Origin: a virus
IMG/VR virus record: IMGVR_UViG_3300035670_000085
Span: 35,897-99,896 of that record
Strand: one strand, 5' to 3'
Length of the DNA: 64,000 nucleotides
Shown: piece by piece, positions 3,669-64,000 of the stretch
Position numbering within the stretch: the first letter of the stretch is position 1
Layout of the letters: each line of letters opens with the position of its first letter
Made by a program: the position numbers and the translations under genes
Notes under the pieces: generated by a model
The model's database searches: none
The model's input: the letters and a program-made list of their open reading frames with translations, nothing else
Told to the model about the DNA's origin: nothing

Positions 3669-3953
3669 ATGAAACGTTATAAATCATTATTAGAAGATGA
3701 TAAAAATAAACGATTTGCTTTACTTCTTTCTGATATGAAACATAGTCGTGGTTCATTTAAATATTTTGATACTGAAAAAGAAGCAGTTGATTTTGTTAAG
3801 AAACTACACAGCCAAAATAAACTTATGAGATATGTAGAAATAGAATTGCTTGATAGAAGTATTAAAGATTATCAAAGTCCTAAATATAGTAGAGTATTGT
3901 GGGATGGATTACATAATGAATTATATGTTAGAGGATATTTGGAGAGAATATAA
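3669..3953 (+). CDS. MKRYK-tagged protein (putative packaged internal protein)
   Basis: 94 residues. It begins MKRYKSLLED, the first copy in the window of a peptide that opens 27 otherwise unrelated proteins. The tag is basic, then hydrophobic, then ends in Glu, like the T4 capsid-targeting sequence (MKTYQEFIAE) cut after (L/I)-x-E. The body (residues 15-94) contains a segment with GSFKYFDTEKEAVDFVKKL, common in small nucleic-acid- or substrate-binding folds, but no function can be assigned. Confidence 0.8.
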   Translation: MKRYKSLLEDDKNKRFALLLSDMKHSRGSFKYFDTEKEAVDFVKKLHSQNKLMRYVEIELLDRSIKDYQSPKYSRVLWDGLHNELYVRGYLERI

Positions 3954-3972
3954 TAAATAAGAGGTTATCGTC

Positions 3973-4113
3973 ATGGGTAAAAATCCTTCAGAAGCAAATA
4001 AAAAAGAAACTCCTAAATGGAAAACAACTATAGTTATTTCTCATTATATAAAACCTAATGGGGCATGGGGAAAAAGAACTACAGAAATACGTGAAGAGGT
4101 TATTAAAAAATGA
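3973..4113 (+). CDS. 46-residue basic protein
   Basis: ATG 3973 is preceded by GAGGT; the stop overlaps the next gene as ATGA. The protein is Lys-rich (MGKNPSEANKKETPKW start) and has no MKRYK tag, one of the few untagged members of this array. Unrecognised. Confidence 0.6.
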   Translation: MGKNPSEANKKETPKWKTTIVISHYIKPNGAWGKRTTEIREEVIKK

Positions 4114-4613
4114 GACGATATAAACCGCTGTTTGAAAAAGTTGATTTAGAAAAAAAAGATTATCATGTTAGAGAATGGGATGAAGATTCTCGTGATACAT
4201 GGGAATATCTTCTTTCTAAATATGAAAACTGGGATCAAGCTAATAAAGATGGTATGGGAAGTCTTTATAATACTTTAGAAAAAAGTTTTATAAGTAATGG
4301 TGATGTTGCAAAGGAATTACTAAAATCTAATAGACAAAATAAAAATTATTTAAATGTTGGTGATGTTCTTTATTTTAAATATATAAACGCTTCAATAATG
4401 GGAAGAAATCCTTTGGATAATAAAGGTATAAAAGAGTTTAAAAAAAATGCATATGTAATTGTGACAGAAGTGAATTTAGAATCTAAAGTTTATGGGTTTA
4501 ATAAAAGCAATAAAAACAAAACAATATTAGGAAATACTTTTTATTATAAAATAAGCGATATAAATGAGTTATTAGAAAAACGAGAAGGAAAATCAATAGA
4601 AGTAATTTATTAA
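4110..4613 (+). CDS. MKRYK-tagged protein
   Basis: 167 residues; tag variant MRRYKPLFEK with LFE as the possible cleavage site. The body is charged and mostly helical to ~85, then a beta-rich part (residues ~90-160) with YLNVGDVLYFKYI, an SH3- or KOW-like look. Starts by ATGA overlap. No known family. Confidence 0.8.
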   Translation: MRRYKPLFEKVDLEKKDYHVREWDEDSRDTWEYLLSKYENWDQANKDGMGSLYNTLEKSFISNGDVAKELLKSNRQNKNYLNVGDVLYFKYINASIMGRNPLDNKGIKEFKKNAYVIVTEVNLESKVYGFNKSNKNKTILGNTFYYKISDINELLEKREGKSIEVIY

Positions 4614-4615
4614 TT

Positions 4616-4915
4616 ATGAAACGTTATAAAAAATTATTTGAATCACAAACTTATCATTCAATAGCTTACAGAGATATTGAAAATACAAGATATAAATCTA
4701 TAAAACCATATAGAGAATATCTTATTATTACTTCTGAAAGTAAAATAGAAAAAGATGGAAATATGATTTGTTATGATAACATTAAATTATATACTAAAGA
4801 AAATTATGCATCTAAAAAAATATCTAACAAAATGATTTTAGTTGATGTAAAAAATATGTGCATTGATATTAAAAGAGACCATTGGATATTTAAAAATGAG
4901 GATATAAATATATGA
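4616..4915 (+). CDS. MKRYK-tagged protein
   Basis: 99 residues; tag MKRYKKLFES. The remainder is basic and beta-rich (YREYLIITSESKIEKDG) without a recognisable motif. Only two bases separate it from the previous gene, and it overlaps the next by four. Confidence 0.75.
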   Translation: MKRYKKLFESQTYHSIAYRDIENTRYKSIKPYREYLIITSESKIEKDGNMICYDNIKLYTKENYASKKISNKMILVDVKNMCIDIKRDHWIFKNEDINI

Positions 4916-5343
4916 AACGGTATAAACCCTTACTTAGAGAGGAAAATTCACTATCGCAATTAGATAAACCAGAATTAGTAGATAAATTATTTCAATATTT
5001 TAAAGAGAATCCGTATCCACTTGACCACGAAGGATTCCATAAATTTGCTGAATCTCTTGGTATGGAAGCAGATGATTTAGAAATCTATGGTTGGGCAATT
5101 ATTAGCTGTTTTGTTACTGGTGGAAATTTTAATAAGTCTGGTAAGAAAGAAGAAGATTTTGATTCTAAAGAAATTGAGATTGGAATTGATATTGAAAAAG
5201 AGCATACCGACTATACTAATGAAAATCCTGTTGTAAAACGTATTGCAAATTTTATGCAAAAAAGAATTGCAAAAGATCATCTTTCAGAATTTTCAAATTA
5301 TTATACTTTGTTAAAAGAAATGGAAAAAAATGCAAAAAAATAA
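4912..5343 (+). CDS. MKRYK-tagged protein
   Basis: 143 residues; tag MKRYKPLLRE (LRE cut site). The body is helical: residues 15-70 are a compact acidic helical domain (DKPELVDKLFQYFKENP), and the C-terminus is a Lys/Glu helix. It closes an operon; a late-promoter motif follows at 5349. Confidence 0.8.
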   Translation: MKRYKPLLREENSLSQLDKPELVDKLFQYFKENPYPLDHEGFHKFAESLGMEADDLEIYGWAIISCFVTGGNFNKSGKKEEDFDSKEIEIGIDIEKEHTDYTNENPVVKRIANFMQKRIAKDHLSEFSNYYTLLKEMEKNAKK

Positions 5344-5348
5344 TAATA

Positions 5349-5364
5349 TATACTAATAAATATA
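5349..5364 (+). promoter_or_regulatory. late-promoter-like motif
   Basis: Exact TATACTAATAAATATA, 27 bases before the ATG at 5391 with a GAGGT ribosome site between. Confidence 0.8.
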
Positions 5365-5390
5365 TAACAATAAAAAAGAGGTAATTGATC

Positions 5391-5708
5391 ATGTATAGAA
5401 GTGTATTTGAAGAAAGCAATGGTAAAAGAAAAATGAATGAAGCTGTAGTATTTTCTATTAGCACAATAGACGATGCTTTTGAAGCTATTCAAAAATGTGT
5501 TGCATTGATAATTGAAAAGAAAAAATCCAGCATGGCTATGATGCTTCCTAGAATAGCTGAAGCAGTAATGAACGGAATTAAAGATGCACTTGGAAATATC
5601 TATAGTGATCCTAACAAAATTGAATCTGTTAAAAAACAAATAGTAGCTAAATTTATTCGTTTCTTTAAACAAGATGCAGTTAGTGCTCCAGAAGAACCAA
5701 TGATGTAG
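5391..5708 (+). CDS. divergent-tagged helical protein
   Basis: 105 residues. The N-terminus MYRSVFEES is a worn version of the tag (Tyr, Ser, hydrophobic pair, Glu-Glu kept; the MKRYK basic part mostly lost). Start chosen at ATG 5391 because GAGGT at 5379-5383 is well placed. The body is a continuous helical domain with an Ala/Lys-rich middle (EKKKSSMAMMLPRIAEAVM). Directly behind an exact late promoter. Function unknown. Confidence 0.75.
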   Translation: MYRSVFEESNGKRKMNEAVVFSISTIDDAFEAIQKCVALIIEKKKSSMAMMLPRIAEAVMNGIKDALGNIYSDPNKIESVKKQIVAKFIRFFKQDAVSAPEEPMM

Positions 5709-5716
5709 TATTAAGT

Positions 5717-5986
5717 ATGAAACGATACATTAGTATTTTTAAAGAATCTGGAACTGGTAATTACGCACCAAGTAGCATTCTTTTTAAAACAGATGAAGAG
5801 TTTAATAGGGCAGTGGAATTGTTAAGTTCTCTTAATTTTCAATTTAAACCAGATTTCTATATAAGAAAAAATGGTAATATTTCTGGGTATAGTAAAAATT
5901 ATTTAAGTTTTACATACTCTAAAGATTGGACTAAACTTGTTAAACTTCTTCAAAAAAATAATGTAGATTTCAAACAAATAAAATGA
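5717..5986 (+). CDS. MKRYK-tagged protein
   Basis: 89 residues; tag MKRYISIFKES. Residues 20-85 look like a small alpha/beta domain (FKTDEEFNRAVELLSSLNFQ, then beta strands and a final helix), as in ferredoxin-like small folds. Function unknown. The stop overlaps the following start. Confidence 0.75.
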   Translation: MKRYISIFKESGTGNYAPSSILFKTDEEFNRAVELLSSLNFQFKPDFYIRKNGNISGYSKNYLSFTYSKDWTKLVKLLQKNNVDFKQIK

Positions 5987-6084
5987 GGCGATACAAACCA
6001 TTATTTGAATATATGACTCCTTCCGAAAGGAAAGGAGCTTTTCTACATGGTCAAACTAATTTAGGAAAGATGGTAATGAAATGA
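5983..6084 (+). CDS. 33-residue MKRYK-tagged mini-protein
   Basis: ATG 5983 to TGA 6084, joined to both neighbours by ATGA overlaps. Begins MRRYKPLFEY, then ~23 residues (MTPSERKGAFLHGQTNLGKM). Almost the whole gene is tag, so it is either a minimal cargo or the remnant of a longer gene; its intact frame and overlaps argue it is still translated. Confidence 0.6.
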   Translation: MRRYKPLFEYMTPSERKGAFLHGQTNLGKMVMK

Positions 6085-6988: not shown

Positions 6989-6989
6989 C

Positions 6990-7490
6990 ATGCCTTCACG
7001 GTCAGAGAGACAAAGAAATTTCATCTTTGCTAAACGCGGAGAATACAAAACCAAATCAGATACTCCAGAAGATTGGAAATGGGTGTGGAATGATGAATGG
7101 GAAAAAATAGAGGAGAGGTTTCCAATAAAACGATATAAACCATTGTTTGAATCAAATAAAATTATCTATTTTATCCGTGCAACAGATAAACAAGAAGTAC
7201 AAAGTAAACATTATGGAGATTACTGGAGATTCTTCAAGTCCTTAAAAGATTTATCTAATTTAATAAAATCAAATCAATTATATGTTGCTCAAAAAGATAA
7301 AAATGATCAATATATGATAATAGGACAAGGAAATATAGACGAACTTGAATTAAATTATTCTGAATTAAACGATGACTTTGATTCAAAAGAGATGCATTTT
7401 AAATTCAAAGACTTATTCGATAAAAATTATACACCTTCCTCTAAAGTTCTTTATGCTGGAAAAATTGATTACGATTTAAAATTAAAATAA
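6990..7490 (+). CDS. fusion protein with internal MKRYK-type tag
   Basis: 166 residues from ATG 6990. The first 45 residues (MPSRSERQRNFIFAKRG...) look like a separate small basic phage protein. At residue 46 the frame runs into IKRYKPLFES: the tag with its Met codon as ATA (7125-7127). A ribosome-site-like GGAGAGG sits at 7112-7118, correctly spaced for that codon. The simplest reading is that ATG mutated to ATA and fused two genes, or that ATA is still used as a weak start. The C-terminal 110 residues are a mixed alpha/beta domain of unknown role. Confidence 0.7.
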   Translation: MPSRSERQRNFIFAKRGEYKTKSDTPEDWKWVWNDEWEKIEERFPIKRYKPLFESNKIIYFIRATDKQEVQSKHYGDYWRFFKSLKDLSNLIKSNQLYVAQKDKNDQYMIIGQGNIDELELNYSELNDDFDSKEMHFKFKDLFDKNYTPSSKVLYAGKIDYDLKLK

Positions 7491-7491: not shown

Positions 7492-8640
7492 ATGAAAAGA
7501 TATAAACCATTATTTAAAGAATCTATTCAATCAGAAAAAGCTATAGCAGAATTAGTTGATTTCGTTATAGATAAATTATCTAATAATATGATGAAAAAAA
7601 TAAATAATGGTGATTTTATTCCAGAAAAAAGATTTAATTTAAGAATGAGTTTTGATGAAAATAAATATTCAAATCCACCAGAAATATTAAAAGAATTTGT
7701 TAATTTATTTTTATATGAATTTGATGTTATATTATCAAGTGATAAAGATAAAGCAAATGGTGTATATCAAAGTAAAAAAAATAGAATAGTATTATGGAAT
7801 GTATTATTTCCAAATACATGGACTAAAGATAATCCTCATTTTGAAGGAAAAAAAGAAATTAAAGATTATTTCAGAAGATATTCTAGAGGTACTCTAATTC
7901 ATGAGTTTGCCCATGCTTATGACGATTTTATAAGTCGTGGAAAATATTTACCTAAAAAATATAAAGATGCCCCAGAAAGTCATGAAGACGAGAAGGGATG
8001 GAAAGATTACGCAAAACAAAATTTAGAAGTCAATGCAAGATATACTGATTGGATAAATGAACATCAAAAAGAAAGAATTACTTACACTTGGCCAGAATAT
8101 GTAAAAGAATTTAAACAAGAATGGGGGATTAAATACTTAAATCCGGAACAATATCGAAGACTTATAAATAGACTATTTGCTCAATATAATGAACCACTAC
8201 CAGAAGATTTTAAACTAGAAGTTTTAAATAGTTTATCCTTTAAATTATTTCATAAAGGATTTGAGAATAAGTTAAATGTTAATGATTTTATTCCAGAAGA
8301 TAAAAGATGGAAAGATCAACTGACCAAAAAAGATATTTTTAATTATATGAAAAAATCTATACAGAATATTTTAACTGGAAAAGTTAAAGAATCTGAGATA
8401 AAAAATCCAGCAATAATTGATAATAGATATGCTGGTTTAAAATCTATAAAATATAGTTTTGAATTGATTGATTCTATGGAAGAAAATCTTAAAAAACATG
8501 CAGACAATCCAGATATTGTTAAAACAATTCAAAAACAAATTGATAAAGAATTAGCATATTATGAAGGATTTAAAAGAATATTTAAATTATCTGATGAAGA
8601 TTTAAAACAGATTAATGATGTTATGATAAAATATTCATAA
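7492..8640 (+). CDS. MKRYK-tagged zinc metallopeptidase
   Basis: 382 residues; tag MKRYKPLFKES. HEFAHAYDD at ~137-145 is an HExxH zinc site, and NLEVNARYTDWI about 40 residues later offers a third Glu ligand, as in gluzincin-type peptidases. The C-terminal 200 residues are helical and charged. In phages, such peptidases occur in injected head proteins (for example in polyvalent proteins), which suits the tag. The cellular target is unknown. It is the largest tagged protein and is followed by a new late promoter. Confidence 0.85.
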   Translation: MKRYKPLFKESIQSEKAIAELVDFVIDKLSNNMMKKINNGDFIPEKRFNLRMSFDENKYSNPPEILKEFVNLFLYEFDVILSSDKDKANGVYQSKKNRIVLWNVLFPNTWTKDNPHFEGKKEIKDYFRRYSRGTLIHEFAHAYDDFISRGKYLPKKYKDAPESHEDEKGWKDYAKQNLEVNARYTDWINEHQKERITYTWPEYVKEFKQEWGIKYLNPEQYRRLINRLFAQYNEPLPEDFKLEVLNSLSFKLFHKGFENKLNVNDFIPEDKRWKDQLTKKDIFNYMKKSIQNILTGKVKESEIKNPAIIDNRYAGLKSIKYSFELIDSMEENLKKHADNPDIVKTIQKQIDKELAYYEGFKRIFKLSDEDLKQINDVMIKYS

Positions 8641-8689: not shown

Positions 8690-8941
8690 ATGAAAAGGTA
8701 TAAGCCATTATTCGAATCCTCTCAAAGATTTTGTGCAATATATAAAGCACAAAATAATAAATGGTACCTAGCTCTTGCTGACGAAGAATACGGTACATCA
8801 GAAGATGCCACTACTTACGGACCTTTTTCTAGTAAAGAGCAAGCTCATAGGTATTTGTTGAGAAATTTTTCAAATCCTGGTGGAATAATTGAGGATGGTT
8901 CTGGAGAACATTCAGTACCTCCCAGTGTTGTTAAGCCTTAG
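8690..8941 (+). CDS. MKRYK-tagged protein
   Basis: 83 residues; tag MKRYKPLFESS. The body (CAIYKAQNNKWYLALADEE...TYGPFSSKEQAHRYL) looks like a small alpha/beta domain of the kind found in many short phage proteins, with a Gly/Ser/Pro-rich tail. Unrecognised. Confidence 0.75.
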   Translation: MKRYKPLFESSQRFCAIYKAQNNKWYLALADEEYGTSEDATTYGPFSSKEQAHRYLLRNFSNPGGIIEDGSGEHSVPPSVVKP

Positions 8942-8981: not shown

Positions 8982-9335
8982 ATGATATGTGAACTAATTT
9001 CTTTCAGTGCAGCAGAACTCAATACAGGAATAGATGTTATAAAAGATATAGAATTTATTTCTATAGTTAAAAATGATGCAGAAGCGCTTCCAAAAGTATA
9101 TAGACCAATTGAGATACGCTTTTCAAATGTAAGCGGTATTGCAGCAAATATTGATATTTTTTCTGATATCGAACATGCTGCTTATCTAACAACTCCAACT
9201 TTATCTGATAAAATAACTATAGCTAATGGCGGTACATTGACATTAACCCCAACTAAAGATGCTATTACTAAAATAGTTGCTAAAGGTACAGCAGGACATT
9301 CTGGAAATTTAAATATTACAATAATAAAAGAGTAG
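8982..9335 (+). CDS. beta-sandwich protein, untagged
   Basis: 117 residues, almost all beta-strand pattern, no tag. It is a diverged paralogue of the gene at 11010 (shared layout: N-terminal strand, IxIxxxN.S..., FSDxEH/EY...TPT(L/I)(S/T)D, final TI/EIxKE). It could be a capsid decoration or small fibre protein, judged only from fold impression and late expression. Confidence 0.7.
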   Translation: MICELISFSAAELNTGIDVIKDIEFISIVKNDAEALPKVYRPIEIRFSNVSGIAANIDIFSDIEHAAYLTTPTLSDKITIANGGTLTLTPTKDAITKIVAKGTAGHSGNLNITIIKE

Positions 9336-9656: not shown

Positions 9657-9938
9657 ATGAAAAGATATAAAAGTGTTATTAGTAAAAATGAAATAAAATT
9701 AAATGAATCTAAGTGGAGTGATGCTAATCTAAGCAGGTTCTTTTTTAGTGGTGAATATGATAATTATCAGCATGGGAATCCAAAGAAAGCAGCGCAGCAA
9801 ATTTATGATCTCACTGTTAATTATTTAGATAATATTGAAAAGAATCTAGAATTGGCAGGTTCATTTTTAGCACCAGCCATAAAAGATGAACTTGAAAAAA
9901 TGTTAAAAAAGAATTTTAGTAGAATAAAAATAAAATGA
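9657..9938 (+). CDS. MKRYK-tagged protein, extended tag
   Basis: 93 residues. Begins MKRYKSVISKNEIKLNES: the usual Glu at position 10 is missing, but LNE at 15-17 restores an [LIF]-x-E site a few residues later, which supports a cleavage role for that motif. GAGGT precedes the ATG. The body is helical; function unknown. Confidence 0.75.
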   Translation: MKRYKSVISKNEIKLNESKWSDANLSRFFFSGEYDNYQHGNPKKAAQQIYDLTVNYLDNIEKNLELAGSFLAPAIKDELEKMLKKNFSRIKIK

Positions 9939-10243
9939 AAAAATATAAATCATTATTTAAAGAATCTGAACAAAAAGCTAGTTACGATTTGGTAGCAAAT
10001 CTTTATAAAAAGGGTTCAAAATGGAGAACTATAGAGTGGGCAAATAATAATGATAAAGCAATAATATCTAATCTATCTCCAACTCTTTTAAAAAAAGGAG
10101 AGAATTGTAATATTGAGATGATGAAAGGTTCTTCTCAATTTAATCTCATAATTTCATGGAAAAACTCTAGCAATGTCATATTAGGATGCTCACTTTCTTT
10201 TGATAATGAAAAAGAAGCACAGAAAGAAGGGTGGAGTATATGA
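9935..10243 (+). CDS. MKRYK-tagged protein
   Basis: 102 residues; tag MKKYKSLFKES. The body has a helical start and then beta strands (CNIEMMKGSSQFNLIISWK). ATGA overlap at both ends. Not recognised. Confidence 0.75.
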   Translation: MKKYKSLFKESEQKASYDLVANLYKKGSKWRTIEWANNNDKAIISNLSPTLLKKGENCNIEMMKGSSQFNLIISWKNSSNVILGCSLSFDNEKEAQKEGWSI

Positions 10244-10963: not shown

Positions 10964-11009
10964 CACGACAATCCAATCAGATTTGATATATCCGACTGAG
11001 AGAGTAATT

Positions 11010-11357
11010 ATGATAACTGAAAAAATTGCAATAGTTAACGCAGACCTCGTAGCGGGAAAAGCGGTTAAAACAATAGAAGATATATCTTTAACTAGATTAG
11101 ATGCACAAGCTTCATCGAAACAATATATTCCTATCAAAATAAAATGTACTAATAACACTAATGTTTCTGGCAATTTTATTGCATTTTCTGATATGGAATA
11201 TATACAATATATAGCAACACCAACAATTACTGATTTAGTTCCTTTAGCAATCGGTGAATCGTTTGAATATATTCCAACAAATCAAAAAATGACAACTATT
11301 GTGGTCGAGTCTGCTGTTTTTACTGGAACCTATGATATAGAAATTTGGAAAGAATAA
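11010..11357 (+). CDS. beta-sandwich protein, paralogue of the 8982 gene
   Basis: 115 residues from ATG 11010 (GAGAGAG upstream). All-beta pattern, untagged. Its first codons (MITEKIAIVN) recur at 11610, where a different short protein starts MIIEKIAIVS, showing a partial local duplication. Possible small virion surface protein; no proof. Confidence 0.7.
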   Translation: MITEKIAIVNADLVAGKAVKTIEDISLTRLDAQASSKQYIPIKIKCTNNTNVSGNFIAFSDMEYIQYIATPTITDLVPLAIGESFEYIPTNQKMTTIVVESAVFTGTYDIEIWKE

Positions 11358-12761: not shown

Positions 12762-14828
12762 ATGGCTAAAATAAAATTAGTTGAAAAGATAGGAATTAAT
12801 GTTCCTATTGAAAATATAAAAGTTTTTGATAAAGTAAAGATAGTAGAAGCTGCCGGAAAGAATTACGAGGCTATAGCAGTAATTGAGAAAGTACCTTTTA
12901 CTAGATTTGGCAGTGTTAATGATAACAATAGATATTATCCACGTAAACTTTGGGAAAAAGTTATAAAAGAAGGAGTATGTGAAGGAAGCTCTCTTTATAC
13001 AAACCATGCAGAAAATGAAACAGATGTATCTAAAAAAGCAGGTATCTGGCATAATGCATTTATTGACGATAAGAATAAAGTATGCAGAGCAGATCTTTAT
13101 CTTATAGGACCAAACGGACAACTCTTTCTCGATGCTTTAAAAGCTGGTTCAAAAGGGGAGGGTATCAGTTCAGTTGGCTACGGTGAGTTTGAAGATAGAT
13201 ACGAAGAATTAAAAGAATTTGGTAATATAGGACATGATGTAAAAGTAGTACGATGGGACACGTATGATGGAGAGTCTTATGGCGACTGGGTACATCAGCC
13301 GTCTCAAAACGTATTTGCAACATTAGAAAATATTAAAGAAAATAATGAAAACTCTTCTAATTTAAATGAAAGTTATACTAATAATAGTAAAGCTACTAAT
13401 GATAAATTAGATGAAAATATAAAATTACAAGAGAATAAAAAAGAGGTTTATATGGATAAGTCGATATTGAAGAATATGGTATTGAATGAAATAAAACGTT
13501 CAAAAAATAATCCTAATCTTCTTGAAGCAATTCAAGGATTGAAAGAGATTGACACTGCTGGTGATTCTGAACTTAATAATAGAGTAAATGATGCAATTGA
13601 AACTCTCACAACTAAACTTGAAGAAAGTAAAAGTAATGCAGAAAAACAGCTCAATGAAAGCACAACTAAATTGAATGAAATGACTGCTAAATATAATAAA
13701 CTTGTTGAGAATTATAAAAAAGCTACTTCTAAAGTTGTAGAATTGACAGAATCAACAAAACTTATGGAATCCGATATTAAATGCTTGGTAGAAGATTCTA
13801 ATCTCCGTGATAATGATATTAAATGTCTTACAGAAGACCGTAAAGTTATGATATCCGATCTTAAAAAAATGATTGAAGATCGTAAAGCAATGAGAAAAGA
13901 TATTAATGTTCTTACTACTAAATTGAAAGAAGCTGAAGAAGTTATTGGTCAACAAGAAGATGAACTTGAAAAACGTGGATTTGAATTTGAAGAAGATGAT
14001 GAAGAAGTAGAATTTGATGCGGAAGGAAATCCTATAGTAAAAGAGCCTGTAACAGAAGAAGAAATGCCTGCACCTGAAGTGCTTCCAGAAACCCCGGCAG
14101 AAATAAAAGAAGAAGGTGACGAACAAGAACTTCCTATGCAAATCGATCCTCTTCCAACTGAACCTGCAATGGTTGAAGAAGAAGATGAAATGATGAATCT
14201 TGATTTTGAAGATGAAGAAGAAGTTGAAGAACTTGAAGAAGAAGATGCTTTTGATGCATTTGCTCCTGCAGGTGAAGAAATGGATGAGCCTATGGTAGAA
14301 GAAGATGAGATGGAAATGCCTGTTGAGGAAATGCCAGTTGAAGAAGCTCCGGCAGAAGAAGTGAAAGAAGAAGAAATGCCTGCACCTGAAACTCTTGACA
14401 CTCCTCCTGCACCGGCTCCTGCTCCTATAGCCATAGAAGAACCTAAACCAGAAGAAACTAAAATGGTTGAGGAAGACGAAGAAGAAAAAGAAGATGAAGA
14501 AGAAGTTGAAGAACCAGAAGAAGAAAAAGAAGAAATGAAAGAATCTGTAATTAAGTTTTCATGGGAACCAAAAAAAGAAGTTAAAAAAGCTCCTGTAAAA
14601 ACTAAAATCGTAGAAAATAATATTAAGGCTGATCTTAAAAAATTCTATGAAAGTCAGATTGCAAAGAATCCTTCTGTAAAAGCTATTGAAAAACAAATCA
14701 TGTCTGCTAAATCTTTGTTAGAGGCCTTTGATATGGTTGATGTATTCAAGAGCAGAAAGTCAGATAAACTTGTGAAAGTTACTGAAAGTAAAAAATCTGA
14801 TGGTAATGTGATAAAATTTAAATTCTAA
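12762..14828 (+). CDS. prohead protease-scaffold protein
   Basis: 688 residues. Residues ~30-215 match the T4 gp21-type prohead protease (assemblin-like serine fold): NNRYYPRKLWEKVI at ~55-68, a candidate catalytic His at ~82 in YTNHAENE, and the conserved serine pocket GISSVGYGEF at ~134-143. Residues ~230-390 are coiled coil; ~395-600 are extremely Glu-rich with Pro/Ala/Met repeats; the last ~60 residues are basic and helical, typical of a head scaffold that binds the capsid protein. T4 makes protease and core from separate genes; here they form one frame with an internal start at 13452. Such proteases cut after [LI]-x-E, the motif present in the MKRYK tags around this gene. Confidence 0.9.
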   Translation: MAKIKLVEKIGINVPIENIKVFDKVKIVEAAGKNYEAIAVIEKVPFTRFGSVNDNNRYYPRKLWEKVIKEGVCEGSSLYTNHAENETDVSKKAGIWHNAFIDDKNKVCRADLYLIGPNGQLFLDALKAGSKGEGISSVGYGEFEDRYEELKEFGNIGHDVKVVRWDTYDGESYGDWVHQPSQNVFATLENIKENNENSSNLNESYTNNSKATNDKLDENIKLQENKKEVYMDKSILKNMVLNEIKRSKNNPNLLEAIQGLKEIDTAGDSELNNRVNDAIETLTTKLEESKSNAEKQLNESTTKLNEMTAKYNKLVENYKKATSKVVELTESTKLMESDIKCLVEDSNLRDNDIKCLTEDRKVMISDLKKMIEDRKAMRKDINVLTTKLKEAEEVIGQQEDELEKRGFEFEEDDEEVEFDAEGNPIVKEPVTEEEMPAPEVLPETPAEIKEEGDEQELPMQIDPLPTEPAMVEEEDEMMNLDFEDEEEVEELEEEDAFDAFAPAGEEMDEPMVEEDEMEMPVEEMPVEEAPAEEVKEEEMPAPETLDTPPAPAPAPIAIEEPKPEETKMVEEDEEEKEDEEEVEEPEEEKEEMKESVIKFSWEPKKEVKKAPVKTKIVENNIKADLKKFYESQIAKNPSVKAIEKQIMSAKSLLEAFDMVDVFKSRKSDKLVKVTESKKSDGNVIKFKF
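13452..14828 (+). CDS. internal-start scaffold protein (nested)
   Basis: Within the protease-scaffold gene, AAGAGG at 13441-13446 lies five bases before an in-frame ATG (13452), exactly at the boundary between the protease part and the coiled coil. Translation from here gives a 458-residue scaffold beginning MDKSILKNMVLNE, in which LNE could also be a protease site. The layout is like lambda C/Nu3, where the scaffold is translated from inside the protease gene. Separate use of this start is inferred. Confidence 0.6.
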   Translation: MDKSILKNMVLNEIKRSKNNPNLLEAIQGLKEIDTAGDSELNNRVNDAIETLTTKLEESKSNAEKQLNESTTKLNEMTAKYNKLVENYKKATSKVVELTESTKLMESDIKCLVEDSNLRDNDIKCLTEDRKVMISDLKKMIEDRKAMRKDINVLTTKLKEAEEVIGQQEDELEKRGFEFEEDDEEVEFDAEGNPIVKEPVTEEEMPAPEVLPETPAEIKEEGDEQELPMQIDPLPTEPAMVEEEDEMMNLDFEDEEEVEELEEEDAFDAFAPAGEEMDEPMVEEDEMEMPVEEMPVEEAPAEEVKEEEMPAPETLDTPPAPAPAPIAIEEPKPEETKMVEEDEEEKEDEEEVEEPEEEKEEMKESVIKFSWEPKKEVKKAPVKTKIVENNIKADLKKFYESQIAKNPSVKAIEKQIMSAKSLLEAFDMVDVFKSRKSDKLVKVTESKKSDGNVIKFKF

Positions 14829-15310: not shown

Positions 15311-16819
15311 ATGAGTAATCAAATGAAACTCCAAGAGGAGTTAAAAGAGCGTAACGAACGCTTGAATAAAATAACTGAAAACTGGATGAGGACTGAATTT
15401 ACAAAAGGCGATGTAATTCCTAAAACTGGAAAAACTTATCGTTCCATGCTTCAAGAAGTTGCAGCAAGGAATCCTCATCATGCAAGATGTATCGCTGCTG
15501 CAGCTCAGCAAGAATACAACCACATGAAAAAAAGTAAAATGAATGAAACTACGATTTCTACTGCTCTTCAAACGCACCCGGAAAACGTAATAAAAGTAAT
15601 CATGCTTGGTATGGCTAATTCAATTCGTCCTATGGCATTCGTAGAATGGCCAATGACAACTATTGATGATGCTATGTATTGGGTAGATCGTACATATGAA
15701 CAATCAATTCGTGGCGCAACTGCTAACGATCTGATTTATTACAGCTTGAATGGAAGGTATGCTGGGGAATCTAAAGAAGAAACAGATGCAACTGTAACTT
15801 CATGTCTCCCGAACGTACCGAATAGCGCAACTCAAAACTTTACGTTGACCCTTACTCTCAATCCTATTATCATGAAAAAAACGTATATTACGTTGAATGA
15901 TACTCTGATTGGTTATGACAGTCTTGGAACTGGTGTTATTACCCGTCCAGGGAATTCAACTGTATTGACAACCAATACAACTAATAATAATATCGATTAT
16001 ACGAATGGTATTGTAAAACTTGGTTTTACTTCTGCTCCCGCAACTGGTGCTGTTATAAAAATAGCATATGAGTGGGATTCTGAAAATACAACTCTGTTTG
16101 CTGCAAATCAAGGAACAGTAAGTGTTAATCTTCGGAAAGATCGTTTTAATGCTCGTCCAATGCCGTTAGGATACAAATTCACGGATATGGCTGGCCTTAC
16201 TCTTATGTCAACTGGTCTTGGTGACATTCATGAAATGCTTATTTCTGCAGTAGCAGATGAGCATGCAAAAGCTCGGGATGCTCGTGCAATTCAGCTCGCA
16301 TACCAACTCGCAAAAGTTAATGGTACTTATACATTTGATTGCGATTTCCGTGTAGCTGGTGAAGTTCAAGCGAAATCACACGTCCAGAAAGTTGTAGCAA
16401 AAATAGATTCTATCGGTGGTTTGATTCAGGACGATATTAAAAAAGGTCAGATCAACGTAGCTATCGCTGGTTCACAAGCACTTTCTATTCTCCGGATGCA
16501 TGACAACTGGAAAGATGATAATTCAATGCCTCGTCAAGGATGCTATAAAGCAGGTTCTGTAAACGGTATTGATGTATTCTATGCACCTGCAACTACCGGA
16601 ATTATTGGAACAGAAGACATTATTCTTTCCTATAAAAACCCGCAAGAAAATGCAGACGTTGCTCTTGCTTTCGGTAACTTTACTGAAATCAGTGCAGAAT
16701 TACGTTATCCAAATTTTACAACTGAAGGATCGTTGGCAACTGTTGAAGACGTGAAAATAATTGAGCCTAAGTTTCTCCGTCATCTTCAGCTTTCAAATAC
16801 TTCGGCTGTTCTTTCCTAG
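15311..16819 (+). CDS. major capsid protein (HK97 fold)
   Basis: 502 residues, a T4 gp23-like length. The N-terminal ~100 residues are helical and charged, with LQE and ITE sites (residues ~7 and ~22) where the prohead protease might trim. The core has LGMANSIRPMAFVEWPM (~100-115) and RDARAIQLAYQLAKVNG, followed by a spine-type C-terminal domain with SQALSILRMHDNW and NGIDVFYAP, typical of HK97-fold capsid proteins. Codon use is richer in GC than the neighbours, as expected for a highly expressed gene. AGAGGAAAT ribosome site; downstream terminator at 16850. Confidence 0.9.
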   Translation: MSNQMKLQEELKERNERLNKITENWMRTEFTKGDVIPKTGKTYRSMLQEVAARNPHHARCIAAAAQQEYNHMKKSKMNETTISTALQTHPENVIKVIMLGMANSIRPMAFVEWPMTTIDDAMYWVDRTYEQSIRGATANDLIYYSLNGRYAGESKEETDATVTSCLPNVPNSATQNFTLTLTLNPIIMKKTYITLNDTLIGYDSLGTGVITRPGNSTVLTTNTTNNNIDYTNGIVKLGFTSAPATGAVIKIAYEWDSENTTLFAANQGTVSVNLRKDRFNARPMPLGYKFTDMAGLTLMSTGLGDIHEMLISAVADEHAKARDARAIQLAYQLAKVNGTYTFDCDFRVAGEVQAKSHVQKVVAKIDSIGGLIQDDIKKGQINVAIAGSQALSILRMHDNWKDDNSMPRQGCYKAGSVNGIDVFYAPATTGIIGTEDIILSYKNPQENADVALAFGNFTEISAELRYPNFTTEGSLATVEDVKIIEPKFLRHLQLSNTSAVLS

Positions 16820-23985: not shown

Positions 23986-24522
23986 TTATAGTGTTATTAG
24001 TTCAAAAGTTCTATAAATATTTGAATTCTTTCCATCAATAAACATATCATAATTAATCAAATCCATCTCTTCTTTCAATTGCTCATCAAACTCATAACGA
24101 GCATAACCATTATTAAATATCCATTCACATATTTTTTCATCAGATTCAAATTTCTTTAAATTTTCTAAAAAAATTTTCTTATCTTTTTGAGTTAATATTT
24201 TCATTTCATTATCAGATAAAGTTGTTGCTGTATATCCTCCATATTTTTTTGTATTTCTGTCTGGTCTCCAATGCACTTGAATTCCAAAACTTTTTTCTTT
24301 AGAATACCACAAATATCTATCTTCGATATTTGTTTTTTTATTGTCAATAAGCCAATCTATTCCTTTTTTAAGTAAATTTTCATATACTGTAATATCCTCT
24401 CCAACTCTTTCATGATACCTGACAACAGAATGTTCTGTATCATAAATAAAATATCCTTTATATGTCAAGACTTTTTTAAAATATTCTTTTATAGGAAATA
24501 ATGGTTCATATCGAGTTACCAT
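23986..24522 (-). CDS. unknown protein with tag-like N-terminus
   Basis: 178 residues. Begins MVTRYEPLFPIKEYF; RYEPLF resembles RYKPLF of the tagged genes, followed by IKE, but this lies on the early strand. The middle has TEHSVVRYHERVGED, an HxxxRxxER pattern, and a Trp/Arg region (VHWRPDRNTKKYGG). Function unknown; a small nuclease- or toxin-like domain is possible. Confidence 0.65.
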   Translation of the reverse strand: MVTRYEPLFPIKEYFKKVLTYKGYFIYDTEHSVVRYHERVGEDITVYENLLKKGIDWLIDNKKTNIEDRYLWYSKEKSFGIQVHWRPDRNTKKYGGYTATTLSDNEMKILTQKDKKIFLENLKKFESDEKICEWIFNNGYARYEFDEQLKEEMDLINYDMFIDGKNSNIYRTFELITL

Positions 24523-41486: not shown

Positions 41487-41900
41487 ATGAAGAGATACAA
41501 AAGACTTTTTGAACAAGAAGATATGGTTGTTAAACCAGAAGAAGAAATTAACGAACCAGAAATGGATTTAAAACAACAAACACAAGATGCAGTTATTGAA
41601 AATCCAATGGTTGAAGAAGATGATGAAGAAATTAATTTCGAAGATGAGAATGAAGAAGAATTTAATTTTGAAGAAGAAGACGAAACCCTTCCAGAAATAG
41701 AAGATGATGAAGAGGAATTCAATTTTGAAGAAGAAGACGATGATGAAATTCTTCCTGAATTAGAAGATGAAGAAGAATTTAATCTTGAAGAAGAAGATTC
41801 TGAATTTCCAATCATTAATTTTGAAGAGGAAGATGATGATGAAATTCTTCCTGAATTAGAAGATGAAGATGAAATTCAAGAACCAGAAATAGTACAATAA
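41487..41900 (+). CDS. highly acidic MKRYK-tagged repeat protein
   Basis: 137 residues from ATG 41487 (TGAGG upstream). Tag MKRYKRLFEQE, then about half Asp/Glu arranged in imperfect repeats of EEEFNFEEED and DDEILPELEDE (four or so between residues 45 and 130). If packaged it might act as DNA mimic or internal head counter-ion, like T4 internal proteins or Ocr in effect; it also resembles the acidic part of the scaffold. Role is inference. Confidence 0.75.
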   Translation: MKRYKRLFEQEDMVVKPEEEINEPEMDLKQQTQDAVIENPMVEEDDEEINFEDENEEEFNFEEEDETLPEIEDDEEEFNFEEEDDDEILPELEDEEEFNLEEEDSEFPIINFEEEDDDEILPELEDEDEIQEPEIVQ

Positions 41901-56192: not shown

Positions 56193-56414
56193 ATGAAAAA
56201 GTATAGAAGTATATTTCAAGAAGCTGAAGAAGATAAAACACAAGATTCTATTGATGAATTAATTACTATGAAACGCCTTGATACTGAAGAAGATAAAGGA
56301 AAATTTCTTGAACTTATAAAAGGAATCGTTTTTTCAAATAATTCTAAAGGAAATGAATTTTTGAATAAAATAAATGATTTCACTTCTACTTTAAAAAAAG
56401 AAGATATTGAGTAA
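56193..56414 (+). CDS. MKRYK-tagged protein
   Basis: 73 residues; tag MKKYRSIFQEA. Acidic helical body (DKTQDSIDELITMKRLDTEED). AGAGGAAAA ribosome site. A lone tagged gene in the tail region, between neck gene and homing-type gene. Confidence 0.75.
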   Translation: MKKYRSIFQEAEEDKTQDSIDELITMKRLDTEEDKGKFLELIKGIVFSNNSKGNEFLNKINDFTSTLKKEDIE

Positions 56415-57560: not shown

Positions 57561-59735
57561 ATGCCAGGAAGTTTTAGGTCCGATTTTTCTATAAAAGACC
57601 TTTCGGGTTATATACAAGCAACAGGAGTTGAAACTGGGTTTATGGCCATTAATGCTAGTAAAGGCCAATCTAAACCAGTTAAATGTAGAAATCAAGATGA
57701 TGTTTTAACATATTTTGGTAATCCTTCAGCAACATTTCCTGAAGTTTTTGAAGCACTTGCTTTTGTACAATCAGCTCCTTGTTGGATTGGACGTGCAATT
57801 GGAACTGGTGCATATTGGGGCGGTGTTGATGTAACTGCTACTAATGTGGTTCCTTTTGGCGGTGGTAGAGGAAATCCAGAAACTTTTAATTTTACAACTG
57901 CAACACAACTTACTGAATATACTGCTGGTTCTGGAACGGGACTGGTGAAACATTTTTCTGGTACTGCTACAAATATACCTGCTGTAAACGCAACATTAAA
58001 AATAAAAGTTGGTTCAACATATGTAAATGCTTCTGAAACTGGAGATTCTATTTCTGGTTCTGATATTGATTCTGGGGCAACACATACATTTATAAAAACA
58101 ACTGGTGCATATGATTTTACCTTTACTGGAACTGTTGGAACTGTTGCTGAAGTTACTGGTAATGTTGCTCAACCTTATAATCTATCTACAAATAAATATG
58201 TAAATATTACAATTGATGGAACACTGTACGAAAATATAGATTTGTCTGATGGCGCTAGTGATCCTTCAGCAGTTACAAATGTAGAAGTTGTAAATGCTAT
58301 AAATGCTATTATACCCGGAACAAAAGCACATACAAGTGGAAATTATGTGAAGCTTAATGGTGCTATAGCAAGTCTGGCATCTGGAAATATTTCTGTAGAA
58401 GATCCAACATTAGGAGCTTCTGCTTTATCTACAGTATTTAGTTCTGGTGGTGGTGTTTTAAGTGCTAAAGGAACTGATCCTGTTGGTGCAGTGCCTAAAT
58501 ATGGTGAAACTGTAGTTTTAGAATATTCTTATACAAGTGATATTTCTTCTACAGTATCTCATTCATTCTTTTCAGCGTCTCCTGCTGATGATGAATATAA
58601 AGTGCTAATTGATAATATTTCTGGTTCACAATTTAATCTTAAATTATATCAAACTGTAGCCGGTAATGATGTATATCTTAAAGAATATAATTATTCATTA
58701 CTTCGTGAAAAAGATGCATTTGGAAAAAATCTTTATATTATGGATGTATTTGATGATGATCCTTATTTAATTCCTGTAGTTAATAGTTCTTATGCTGGAA
58801 CGATTCCTTCACTCCCCGGCACTCCTGCAGTTGCACTTGCTGGTGGTGATAGTGGTTCTGCTCCTTCAGCTTCTAATTATGTAACTGTTTGGGATTATGC
58901 TAAAAAAGTACAAGATTATCCTGCTAAAATATTTATGAACGTAAATGGATTAAATCTTGCATATGTTAATAATATTCTTGAAACTTATCAATATTATTCA
59001 CATCAAATCGGTGTTGTTCCTCTAGGAAATGATGTAGCTGATGCAATTGCTTGGAGAAGTGCTACTACAATAGATTCTAAATATACATCACTCTATACAA
59101 ACTGGAGAAAAATCTATGATGTATATAATGATAGTTATGCATGGATTTCAAACGTTGGTTCAATAGGACGTAAATATGCAGCAATGGCAGATGTATATGA
59201 TGGACTCTCTCCTGCTGGTATTGATGAAGGTCCTTATGGTGGTCAAATTGCAGACTGGACAACAATAGAAATGGAATACGGATATGATGATTCTGAACTC
59301 GCAGATTTAGATGCAGCTCAAATCAATCCTATTATTCTTGATGAGATTTATGGAGTTATGATTTATGGTGATAAAACTTTACAAGTAAGTTTATCAGATA
59401 CATCATTTATACATTCAAAAAGGATTATTGATACGATTATTGAAACTGCTGTTAAACAAGTTTTGAGAAAACAAGAATTTAAATTGAATGATCAAAACCA
59501 TCAGTTATCTGCTAAATCTAAAATAGAAACTTTTATGGAACCTATTTTAGCTAAACAGTTGATTAGGGATTATCGTGTCCAGTGTGACGATATTAATAAC
59601 TCAGATGCGGTGAAAACACAAAGATTGTTCATTGTCGACATTATCTTGAAAGTTTCCGTGAATTCTCAGAAATGTAGGGTTAGACTAACACAAACCTCTC
59701 AAAATGCAGTTCTTAGTCAAATAACGCCGGCATAA
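57561..59735 (+). CDS. contractile tail sheath protein
   Basis: 724 residues, T4 gp18-like size. The N-terminus (SIKDLSGYIQATGVETGFMAINASKGQ, then DDVLTYFGNPS, CWIGRAIG) and the C-terminus (RIIDTIIETAVKQVLRKQEFKLNDQNHQLSAKSKIE...VNSQKCRVRLTQTSQNAVLSQI) are typical of the sheath core; the middle (~100-430) is a variable outer insertion rich in Gly/Thr. Directly followed by the tube gene. Contracts to drive the tube into the cell. Confidence 0.9.
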   Translation: MPGSFRSDFSIKDLSGYIQATGVETGFMAINASKGQSKPVKCRNQDDVLTYFGNPSATFPEVFEALAFVQSAPCWIGRAIGTGAYWGGVDVTATNVVPFGGGRGNPETFNFTTATQLTEYTAGSGTGLVKHFSGTATNIPAVNATLKIKVGSTYVNASETGDSISGSDIDSGATHTFIKTTGAYDFTFTGTVGTVAEVTGNVAQPYNLSTNKYVNITIDGTLYENIDLSDGASDPSAVTNVEVVNAINAIIPGTKAHTSGNYVKLNGAIASLASGNISVEDPTLGASALSTVFSSGGGVLSAKGTDPVGAVPKYGETVVLEYSYTSDISSTVSHSFFSASPADDEYKVLIDNISGSQFNLKLYQTVAGNDVYLKEYNYSLLREKDAFGKNLYIMDVFDDDPYLIPVVNSSYAGTIPSLPGTPAVALAGGDSGSAPSASNYVTVWDYAKKVQDYPAKIFMNVNGLNLAYVNNILETYQYYSHQIGVVPLGNDVADAIAWRSATTIDSKYTSLYTNWRKIYDVYNDSYAWISNVGSIGRKYAAMADVYDGLSPAGIDEGPYGGQIADWTTIEMEYGYDDSELADLDAAQINPIILDEIYGVMIYGDKTLQVSLSDTSFIHSKRIIDTIIETAVKQVLRKQEFKLNDQNHQLSAKSKIETFMEPILAKQLIRDYRVQCDDINNSDAVKTQRLFIVDIILKVSVNSQKCRVRLTQTSQNAVLSQITPA

Positions 59736-61316: not shown

Positions 61317-61353
61317 TTTCTTAAAAAAAGTAAAAAAGTACAAATTTTTTATA

Positions 61354-61369
61354 TATACTAATAATTAAA
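61354..61369 (+). promoter_or_regulatory. late-promoter-like motif variant
   Basis: TATACTAATAATTAAA before the gene at 61399, with TTGAGGT as ribosome site. Confidence 0.6.
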
Positions 61370-61398
61370 ATAATATATTAAAATTGAGGTTTATTTAT

Positions 61399-62541: not shown

Positions 62542-62542
62542 T

Positions 62543-62683
62543 ATGAAACTTAAACTCTGTGATAGTGAAATTATGAAGATTAAGTATCATAGAATGAGAG
62601 ATAAATTTAAGTACCTTGCTGAATATAATAAAGCTTTTGAAGATGCTTTAAAAGAAGGTGCTAGTAAGATGAAGAAGAAATAA
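62543..62683 (+). CDS. small basic helical protein
   Basis: 46 residues from ATG 62543, one base after the previous stop. MKLKLCDSEIMKIKYHRMRDK then KYLAEYNKAFEDALKE. The same frame is open 120 bases upstream, but there is no slip site, so simple coupling is preferred. Possibly a tiny hub or assembly factor. Confidence 0.6.
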   Translation: MKLKLCDSEIMKIKYHRMRDKFKYLAEYNKAFEDALKEGASKMKKK

Positions 62684-62693
62684 AGTTACATAT

Positions 62694-62728
62694 AACCACT
62701 TTGATTGAAAAATCATTGTGGTTTTTCT
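62694..62728 (+). terminator. rho-independent terminator
   Basis: AACCAC...GTGGTT (62694-62699 with 62718-62723) with further pairing of TGAT/ATCA inside, then TTTCTATTATTTTT. Confidence 0.7.
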
Positions 62729-62746
62729 ATTATTTTTCAAAATTTT

Positions 62747-62762
62747 TATACTAATAAATATA
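62747..62762 (+). promoter_or_regulatory. late-promoter-like motif
   Basis: Exact TATACTAATAAATATA, 12 bases before the tagged SprT-like gene. Confidence 0.8.
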
Positions 62763-62774
62763 AAGTTTACCCAT

Positions 62775-63125
62775 ATGAAAAGATATAAATCCTTATTTGA
62801 ACAAAATAGCGATGATTATGATCTCAAAACAAAATATAAGGAGTTCAATGATTTATATTTTAACGGAGAACTTTCACCAACCACTAAATTAGAATGGGCA
62901 GATAGAATGGGTGATGCAACTATGGCTATGACACATCCAACACTTCCATTCACAATTAAAATGGGTAATAAAAAAGACTTAGATGAAATAGTTCTTGACT
63001 CGACATTGATACACGAAATGATTCATGTTCTTCAATTTCAAATGGGAAGACAAGGTTTTCACGATGATTGGTTCAATGCTGAAAAAGAACGTATAGAAAA
63101 ATTAAATCCAAAATTAGATATATGA
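62775..63125 (+). CDS. MKRYK-tagged SprT-like metalloprotease
   Basis: 116 residues from ATG 62775; tag MKRYKSLFEQ. YKEFNDLYFNGELSPTTKLEW (~25-45), STLIHEMIHVLQFQMGRQGFHDDW (~76-99) with HExxH at 80-84 and a third His at ~96 are the SprT-family layout (compare Spartan, which digests proteins cross-linked to DNA). Shorter than usual, lacking the C-terminal zinc ribbon. If packaged it could clear DNA-bound proteins from the incoming genome. Role inferred. Confidence 0.85.
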   Translation: MKRYKSLFEQNSDDYDLKTKYKEFNDLYFNGELSPTTKLEWADRMGDATMAMTHPTLPFTIKMGNKKDLDEIVLDSTLIHEMIHVLQFQMGRQGFHDDWFNAEKERIEKLNPKLDI

Positions 63126-63607
63126 AAAGATATAAACCGTTATTCAAAGAAGAAGTTATAGGCGATCTAAAAAGTTTAGAATTTACCAAAACTTATCATG
63201 GTACAACTTCTCAAAAACTACCGGGTGGATTAAAGTTATCCAAAAGTGAGAATAAAAATATATTTGGCGGCAATGCTTCAATAAGTGTAACTGATAATAA
63301 ATTTTTAGCGCAATCTTTTACAAAAGGGGAGTTGGGCCTCGATCCAGAGGGTAAGATTTTTATTATTACAAAACCTATAAAAGTACTAGATTTACGAGAT
63401 AAAAAGACGCATAGTTTTTGGAAAAATTCAAAATACAATCCTCAAATAATTCTAAATGCTGGGTACGATGGTGTAGCTTTTGAAAATCTTGAAGAGATAA
63501 GAATTGAATCTTTTTATAAAGAAATTCCAATAAATAAAATAAAAAATGCTTTAGAGATTCAATTATTTAAGAATGTAGAAGAAAGATATATAAAAGAACT
63601 AAAATGA
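63122..63607 (+). CDS. MKRYK-tagged ADP-ribosyltransferase-like protein
   Basis: 161 residues; tag MKRYKPLFKEE. TYHGTTSQKLPGGLKLS (~22-38), GGNASISVTDNKFLAQSF (~47-64), GKIFIITKPIKVLDLRD and GYDGVAFENLEEIRIE follow the order of mono-ADP-ribosyltransferase folds (YHGT first strand, S-T region, late Glu). T4 packages the ADP-ribosyltransferase Alt with a similar targeting peptide, so the pairing of tag and fold is striking. Activity is not provable from sequence alone. Confidence 0.7.
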   Translation: MKRYKPLFKEEVIGDLKSLEFTKTYHGTTSQKLPGGLKLSKSENKNIFGGNASISVTDNKFLAQSFTKGELGLDPEGKIFIITKPIKVLDLRDKKTHSFWKNSKYNPQIILNAGYDGVAFENLEEIRIESFYKEIPINKIKNALEIQLFKNVEERYIKELK

Positions 63608-64000
63608 AAAGATATAAACCGTTATTCAGAGAAAATAATATCTCAGATTTCTATGAGTATGAAGAAGTTCGGAGAACTATTGACGAACTTCAATTACCAT
63701 ATAATATAGAAGAAATAATTGATAAATTTAATAAAACAAAAACTCAAAAATTAGATAAAGCAATTTGGAAAATTTTGAATAATACTGATTATGATGTCAA
63801 TACAGAACAGGATGTTAGAGCGCGATTAGAGCAGTATGAGCGTGACCTAAACAACTATAATAAAGTATTGAATGAATTTAAGAAGGGTATATTTTATCCT
63901 TCCTTAATAGTACATACAGAAAAAGATGGTTATTATTTAGTAGCAGGAAATACTAGATTAATGGTATCTAAAGTTAATAATTTAATACCGTTTGTAAAAA
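63604..64000 (+). CDS. MKRYK-tagged ParB-like protein (3' end outside window)
   Basis: 132 residues visible; tag MKRYKPLFREN. Helical N-terminal ~85 residues, then YPSLIVHTEKDGYYLVAGNTRLMVSKV (~100-126), the ParB/sulfiredoxin-type core with GNTRL. Such domains occur as nucleases/CTPases and in injected polyvalent phage proteins. Starts by ATGA overlap with the previous tagged gene. Incomplete at the window edge. Confidence 0.8.
   Translation, partial: MKRYKPLFRENNISDFYEYEEVRRTIDELQLPYNIEEIIDKFNKTKTQKLDKAIWKILNNTDYDVNTEQDVRARLEQYERDLNNYNKVLNEFKKGIFYPSLIVHTEKDGYYLVAGNTRLMVSKVNNLIPFVK

Follow-up and report, generated by a model that had tools for sequence, protein, structure and literature searches.

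We analysed a window of 64,000 bases, positions 35897-99896 of the 99,896-base virus record IMGVR_UViG_3300035670_000085 (G000), whose right edge is the end of the record, and found that a large set of its genes begins with one short peptide, the tag, of consensus MKRYK[SP][LI]FKE. The phage is uncultured and known from its environmental sequence record only, and its relation to T4 is distant. Judging from sequence, the tag is very probably a clade-specific capsid-targeting sequence (CTS) like that of the T4 internal proteins, which a gp21-type protease would cut so that the bodies could be ejected with the DNA. This reading has strong support in silico. It draws on the tag set itself and the selection on it at the protein level, on the likeness of the protease to gp21, on candidate cleavage sites that are conserved, on the persistence of tags in relatives, and on a shared cargo that elsewhere has a T4-type tag.

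A tag matrix, derived from the tags themselves and hence not independent of them, was scored against every ATG, GTG, TTG, ATA and ATT start in the record. Twenty-nine starts reached at least 15.7, namely 26 ATG genes of the window, which begin M[KR][RK]Y, a copy at 7125, internal to the 6990 gene, and two starts outside the window; a drifted start (5385/5391) scored 10.1 and the next-best start 6.3. With the drifted gene and the internal copy, the window holds 28 members, exactly the 27 genes in four clusters plus one internal tag that a preliminary description had reported. The motif search over the whole record that it had proposed added G000:26258 (L002:8258) and G000:8044 (L001:8044), giving a total of 30, all on the + strand, with 23 gathered in a single head-gene stretch. 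Sixty second-order Markov simulations of the window gave a mean of 0.03 tag matches and a maximum of 1, against 26 observed. The bodies behind the tags are unrelated, as had been claimed: BLASTP at 1e-3 found no matching pair among the 30. The member count is a lower bound, and a - strand gene at 23986-24522 may be a drifted member; it starts MVTRYEPLF, its homolog in the related record G008 (52% identical) starts MKRYEPHKFEE, and it is possibly the 31st.

The tagged genes of the window are as follows; unless another basis is given, each line rests on the tag-matrix score, the tabulation of tag residues and the [LIFMV]-x-E test. Lengths are in amino acids (aa); the 5983 member has only 33, and the 63604 gene is truncated by the record end.

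3669..3953, +: tagged protein MKRYKSLLE, 94 aa
4110..4613, +: tagged protein MRRYKPLFE, 167 aa
4616..4915, +: tagged protein MKRYKKLFE, 99 aa
4912..5343, +: tagged DUF5661 protein MKRYKPLLRE (Pfam DUF5661, E 1.1e-10; tagged ortholog L050:614-1051)
5385..5708, +: drifted tag MYRSVFEE, Met at 5391
5717..5986, +: tagged protein MKRYISIFKE, 89 aa
5983..6084, +: tagged miniprotein MRRYKPLFE, 33 aa
6081..6320, +: tagged protein MKRYKSIFKE, 79 aa
6317..6988, +: tagged protein MKRYKQLFKE, 223 aa, with a SWIM-like CxC..CxH motif (tagged orthologs L048:17325-18104 and L050:17954-18736)
6990..7490, +: leader of about 45 aa, internal tag IKRYKPLFE (7125-7151) and body
7492..8640, +: tagged protein MKRYKPLFKE, 382 aa, putative zinc peptidase with an HExxH motif (HEFAH on reading the sequence)
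8690..8941, +: tagged protein MKRYKPLFE, 83 aa
9345..9641, +: tagged protein MKRYKSLFKE, 98 aa
9657..9938, +: tagged protein MKRYKSVISKNEIKLNE, 93 aa, site displaced
9935..10243, +: tagged protein MKKYKSLFKE, 102 aa
10240..10467, +: tagged protein MKRYTPIKLQE, 75 aa
10470..10712, +: tagged protein MKRYKSILKE, 80 aa
10715..10963, +: tagged protein MKRYKSIIKE, 82 aa
11377..11607, +: tagged protein MKRYKSVIKE, 76 aa
11851..12216, +: tagged protein MKRYKSILNE, 121 aa
12213..12524, +: tagged protein MKRYRSIFKE, 103 aa
12540..12743, +: tagged protein MKRYKSILKE, 67 aa
14890..15105, +: tagged protein MKRYKSLFKE, 71 aa, between the protease and capsid genes
41487..41900, +: tagged, very acidic protein MKRYKRLFE, probable core or scaffold component (net charge -65)
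56193..56414, +: tagged protein MKKYRSIFQE, 73 aa (tagged relatives in G008 and G005)
62775..63125, +: tagged SprT-like metallopeptidase MKRYKSLFE (Pfam SprT-like, E 2.5e-11)
63122..63607, +: tagged protein MKRYKPLFKE, 161 aa, ADP-ribosyltransferase (ART)-like by motif only
63604..64000, +: tagged protein MKRYKPLFRE, truncated where the record stops, ParB-like by motif only

Selection on the set acts on the peptide, since the same residues are written in different codons: AGA, AGG, CGA, CGT and CGG all encode Arg3, TCN and AGY codons both encode Ser6, and the codon differs in 820 of 1955 amino-acid-identical codon pairs. Information per base was at most 0.81 bits upstream and up to 2.43 bits within the tag. 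Tyr4 occurs in 29 of the 30 tags, and [LIV] at residue 7 and [FLI] at residue 8 in 28 each. Nearly all tags were said to end in [LIF]-x-E, and [LIFMV]-x-E with Glu at residues 8-16 was indeed found in 29/30 tags against 14/91 untagged N-termini (Fisher 2.7e-16); with Glu at residue 9 or 10 the counts were 27/30 and 3/91 (Fisher 2.2e-20). These p-values are indicative, because the untagged set consists of mechanically called open reading frames (ORFs). The two chief endings, LFKE and LFE, are one motif offset by one residue. The sole tag without a site at 8-16 is that of the 9657 gene, where the LNE noted earlier lies just downstream.

The tag agrees with the capsid-targeting sequence of T4 at the positions mapped as determinants, namely residues 4, 7, 8 and 10. 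In T4 internal protein IPIII, packaging needs the first ten residues, with targeting at 4 and 7 and processing at 8 and 10, and the specificity of gp21 is given as L/I-X-E (PMC9026906). The preliminary description had assigned MKTYQEFIAE to all three T4 internal proteins; in the T4 record this is correct for IPII and IPIII, but IPI starts MKTFKEFTSTTTPVSTITE.

The predicted cutter of the tags lies inside the array, directly ahead of the last tagged gene before the capsid gene.

12762..14828, +: gp21-type prohead protease (N-terminal ~215 aa) with a coiled-coil and acidic, scaffold-like tail

The protein scored 17.0 bits against Pfam S77 for the domain alone (cut-off 27), and because this is below the cut-off the family call needed further evidence. 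When a profile of five clade proteases was compared with PDB sequences, T4 gp21 (5jbl) ranked first (E 3.8e-4). Foldseek with the protease domain of the window gave 5jbl_A at 7.5e-6 and 5jbl_B at 1.3e-5 (probability 1.00, template-modelling scores 0.42/0.52), and the next other match was at 0.85. The invariant His82 and Ser136 of the clade proteases align with His85 and Ser140 of T4 gp21, which we take to be its catalytic residues. The N-terminal LLIE of T4 gp21 aligns with LLIE or LVE of the clade proteases, and LIE-9 is described as a possible cleavage site in T4 gp21 (PMC9026906). The preliminary description had already named a gp21-like protease at this place. The protein is predicted to cut the tags. 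The remainder of the 688-aa protein reads as coiled-coil-like and acidic stretches, so protease and scaffold appear to be fused. An in-frame internal ATG (MDK) stands at 13452 with GAGGT upstream, and four of five clade members have an MDK with a GAGG-type site upstream at a similar position; this is possibly the start of a separately started scaffold, as the scaffold of phage lambda is.

One cargo links the tag to that of T4. L002:8258 (PHROG 2579, E 3.4e-30) begins MKRYKPLFEAEDYRGDHRAP, and its homolog in the Vibrio phage VH7D (Straboviridae; tblastn 9e-14, BLASTP of the pair 4e-22) begins MKTYTEFLSEYHMQHRAP, with the T4-type tag MKTYTEFLSE. Relatives of this protein occur in 12 phage records, of which three N-termini were examined: besides VH7D, the homolog of Vibrio phage 1.081.O begins MYSFSEFINLAESDYMGSHRAP, and in a 34.7-kb Myoviridae record the domain ends a longer protein that carries no tag. 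The narrow pattern MKT[YF]xEF was found four times in T4, once in VH7D and not at all in 1.081.O. For DUF5661, relatives of the G008 form occur in 13 records, of which five were examined; the protein of Flavobacterium phage immuto starts MKKSQLRQIIKEA, CTS-like by eye only, and in three cyanophages the domain lies inside longer proteins.

The tag also recurs in related records. An alignment search with the tail sheath (57561-59735) found relatives 38-53% identical at 19 IMG/VR loci, and the capsid protein was present in 4 of 17 records searched, 36-39% identical to that of the window over the alignment (G005 37%, G008 39%). In G005 and G008 tagged genes adjoin the protease genes and occur elsewhere too, on orthologous and on other cargo. 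Starts of the form M.[KRP]Y, a count free of hand selection with expectations from 8 simulations, numbered 36 in G000 (3.9 expected), 40 in G005 (6.2), 29 in G008 (2.8), 12 in G017 (3.3), 10 in G001 (4.0), 4 in G013 (1.6), 1 in G015 (0.5), 0 in a stretch of Rhodothermus phage RM378 (1.0) and 3 in two T4 stretches (0.1). The three T4 starts are not T4 tags and lack the site, which indicates that genuine gene starts have a higher background than the simulation allows for. When [LIFMVY]xE was also required at 8-12, the counts were 28 in G000, 22 in G005, 20 in G008, 4 in G017, 1 in G001, 2 in G013 and zero in G015, the RM378 stretch and the T4 stretches. Direct searches of viral_contigs with the protease, capsid and ART-like queries gave no relatives, nor did genome_contigs for the capsid protein. 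A degenerate scan of viral_contigs for tag DNA gave nine stretches with one match each, whose ORF lists held no tagged arrays.

Shared cargo keeps drifted tags: the relatives are 36% identical for 4912, 48-51% for 6317, 58-59% for 56193 and 61% for L001:8044. The tag of the last is MKRYQSQFME here and MVKRYKRIESQFME in G005, and the relatives of 56193 are L043:173 in G008 (58%) and L050 571-389 on the - strand in G005 (59%), which starts MEKYVPKFKIKE. The fifth member with relatives, 6990, has a leader (MPSRSERQRNF...) that also precedes a tag in G005 and, before a SWIM-like protein, in G008; after the leader, the tag opens with ATA in the window, with ATT in G005 and with ATG in G008. Recurring before tags, the leader with its tag looks like a reused unit. 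In RM378 it starts a 139-aa protein without a tag. Two tagged genes fused in G008 were considered as a possible polyprotein; this idea was dropped, since the internal tag comes with an AGAGGA site and an ATG of its own. Tagged proteins of the relatives include a DnaJ protein in G013 (Pfam 6.4e-9) and a phosphoribosyltransferase in G005 (2.7e-6).

The surroundings of the array also resemble T4.

15311..16819, +: gp23-type major capsid protein (Pfam Gp23), [LM]-x-E79 ahead of the conserved domain

This protein matched Pfam Gp23 (PF07068) at 25.3 bits (cut-off 24.4, E 1.3e-5), and Glu79 within [LM]-x-E is invariant in 5/5 clade capsid proteins; T4 gp23 sheds a 65-residue propeptide (PMC9026906). 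The protease gene precedes the Gp23-family capsid gene, as in T4. In the T4 record the order is 20-67-68-21-22-23; here several untagged genes come after that of a 639-aa protein (L002:15292), then the main array, the gene for protease and scaffold, a single tagged gene and gp23, an order in which the array occupies the place of the T4 core genes 67 and 68. L002:15292 is presumed to be the portal protein by position only, since PHROG and Pfam searches gave it no match. The N-terminus of T4 gp23 (L075:2446) holds KWKPLLEG and the RM378 capsid protein (L081:16190-17761) KWQPLLEG, which are similar to the tags RYKPLLRE and RYKPLFE and are perhaps the same core-binding element. Among phage records the capsid protein had one weak match, in Xanthomonas phage phiXF1; the clade is a little-described myovirus clade.

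We infer the packaging, cleavage, injection and function of the tagged proteins as follows. During head assembly the tag would draw each protein into the prohead core, where, by analogy with T4, Tyr4 and the hydrophobic residue 7 would bind the scaffold, a role probably played here by the protease gene's tail. The 12762 protease would then cleave after [LIFM]-x-E, mostly at Glu9 or Glu10, releasing the bodies within the head; cleavage of the capsid protein would take place at [LM]-x-E79 of its own sequence. Once released, the tagged proteins would leave with the DNA, most of them probably as early host-takeover or anti-defence proteins, and a few (41487, perhaps the DUF5661 protein) may be parts of the core or scaffold. 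On a broader proposal our opinion is evenly balanced: that T4-related lineages each have their own capsid-loading tag, that cargo swaps tags between lineages, and that the set has expanded here to at least 30.

It seems rather unlikely that most tagged proteins are components of the prohead core or scaffold, packaged and cut but not injected as effectors. This would suit the extremely acidic 41487 protein (T4 gp67 holds a long acidic run in its first 75 residues), the position of the main array, which lies from the presumed portal gene towards the protease gene, in the place of 67 and 68, and the finding that DUF5661 forms part of longer proteins from the head region of cyanophages and, in a Vibrio phage, is annotated as DUF2213. 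However, the bodies are mutually unrelated and 25 of the 30 have no relative in the related records, unlike core genes; the cargo includes SprT-like and nucleotidyltransferase-like proteins, with the phosphoribosyltransferase and DnaJ protein in relatives, and one cargo bears a T4-type CTS in another phage. The position-wise match to the T4 CTS, its replacement of the tag on that cargo and the protease-type site at the end of the tag also make it improbable that the peptide sorts proteins to another compartment, for example by import into a phage nucleus, or acts as a degradation or partner-binding tag, although a short N-terminus common to unrelated proteins would fit any such signal.

Many of the genes are small, tandem and on one strand, as would be expected of paralogs whose bodies diverged past recognition and whose N-terminus was merely the slowest part to change. 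We consider this very improbable, given that the recognisable bodies fall in different families and that the 6317 body is 48-51% identical to its orthologs although the tags differ. A shared DNA or RNA element, either a translation-initiation cassette or a recombination spacer, is scarcely credible: the motif does lie at the start codon, with AGGAG-like sites before some tags, but the information is concentrated in the tag and not upstream of it, both codon families of Arg and of Ser are used, relatives keep the motif at the amino-acid level, and the conserved internal copy lacks ATG in the window (ATA) and in G005 (ATT).

Several observations weigh against the reading as capsid-targeted, injected proteins. 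T4 IPI has Phe4 and its first [LI]-x-E at residue 19, so the exact spacing is no firm rule, and the DUF5661 protein of Caulobacter phage Cr30 starts MKDFKSFLNA, CTS-like by eye, without the Glu. P3 is mostly Phe here, broader than the L/I of T4, and the processing site agrees with that of T4 when P3 is widened. In relatives the site lies within 8-16 in 34 of 41 hand-kept tags and is absent there from 7; the 41 comprise 47 rows scoring above 6, less 10 judged spurious (e.g. MKKYTILLILI, MKRYSTLFIIS, MKKQTSIFE), plus four added by eye (L044:19376, L043:17409, L042:13276, L046:1723). G015, whose capsid protein is related, lacks strict tags, and they are few in G001 and G013. The clade proteases stay under the S77 cut-off (17.0 and 18.7 against 27 bits), with only 2 of 5 matched, and the model of the protease domain has a predicted local distance difference test score (pLDDT) of 58.6. 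As to effectors, most bodies have no recognisable function, the 41487 protein with its charge of -65 is core-like, only 5 of 30 bodies (4912, 6317, 56193, L001:8044 and 6990) have relatives in the related records (tblastn 1e-4), and 63604, 62775, 4912 and 6317 have none in phage records (tblastn, limit 1e-3).

Compared with known systems, the set represents the T4 internal-protein system in a new and large form. It shares with IPI-III an N-terminal peptide of about 10 residues on otherwise unrelated proteins, with IPII and IPIII the residues Met1, Lys2, Tyr4, hydrophobic 7 and 8 and Glu10, and with T4 a similar protease and capsid protein, the protease gene preceding the capsid gene. It differs from T4 in its consensus (MKRYK[SP][LI]FKE against MKTYQEFIAE, P3 mostly Phe), in having at least 30 members, in the fusion of the protease with a scaffold-like tail, and in the concentration of 23 of the 30 in one head-gene stretch. 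T4 has three internal proteins with a shared signal and its T-even relatives together at least 10, and the three of T4 inhibit distinct GmrSD restriction enzymes (PMC12373910). The giant phages SPN3US and phiKZ likewise have many head proteins, some with propeptides cut by the prohead protease, but several of these propeptides exceed 100 residues, the sites are A-x-E or S-x-E, and in the available part of that report a shared N-terminus is given for two paralogs only (PMC5694885). In phage P1, a short N-terminus of DarB suffices to target a reporter to the capsid (PMC9024508); DarB, however, is one large protein. Polyvalent proteins deliver similar domain types with the DNA (metallopeptidases, ParB-like, phosphoribosyltransferase) as multidomain polypeptides, whereas separate tagged proteins are found here (PMC5512222). 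A literature search, from which most subscription papers and all bioRxiv preprints were excluded, found nothing on this clade or on a tag set this large.

To find out which proteins a phage injects, virion proteomics on a cultured phage is normally needed. In this case, tag and protease together name at least 30 candidates from a genome alone, about three times the at least 10 that PMC12373910 gives for T-even relatives. Because the T4 internal proteins inhibit GmrSD enzymes, the small bodies can be ranked as candidates for new anti-defence proteins, and the fact that a shared cargo bears a T4-type tag points to a general route to such sets in other lineages. If the tags are lineage-specific addresses, the virion would deliver an arsenal carried elsewhere as multidomain polyvalent proteins, and the injected protein sets of uncultured phages would be readable from genome sequence alone.

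The tagged proteins of the record measure 33-382 aa, with 63604 cut off, and none matched two families. Of the window's cargo only the SprT-like 62775 and the DUF5661 protein 4912 reached a Pfam cut-off; outside it, L001:8044 matched a nucleotidyltransferase PHROG (E 3.3e-4). The cargo classes named in the preliminary description therefore fared unequally. The SprT-like metallopeptidase stood (Pfam E 2.5e-11), but the ART-like and ParB-like labels gained no significant support: family searches gave no supporting match for 63122, whose single-sequence fold model had a pLDDT of 30.4, and 63604 has its motif and a non-significant match to the ParB chain 4umk (E 0.83). A marginal match of 63122 to KwaB (PADLOC, E 0.0027) was read as noise, like those to Cas10 (E 0.0075) and to four NCBIfam models (0.0018-0.01). 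For 7492, the HExxH protein, no family exceeded its cut-off, and the SWIM assignment of 6317 comes from its ortholog, under cut-off (E 0.03). The 41487 protein is probably a core or scaffold component. No relatives in phage records were found by tblastn for L001:8044 (limit 1e-5) or L048:14582 (limit 1e-3), and L044:1207 matched five records, each over parts only. By eye, the C-terminal half of L043:173 resembles the 5391 body, but BLASTP gave E 3.6 and the likeness was discarded.

An untagged 370-aa HExxH protein (2038-3150) lies just ahead of the array and is similar to tagged metallopeptidases of G008; its best match there begins MKYKLQEVE, perhaps a shortened tag. Two further untagged genes, 8982-9335 and 10983-11357, lie within the array, look alike by eye and possibly encode head decoration proteins; the former has relatives in G015 and G008.

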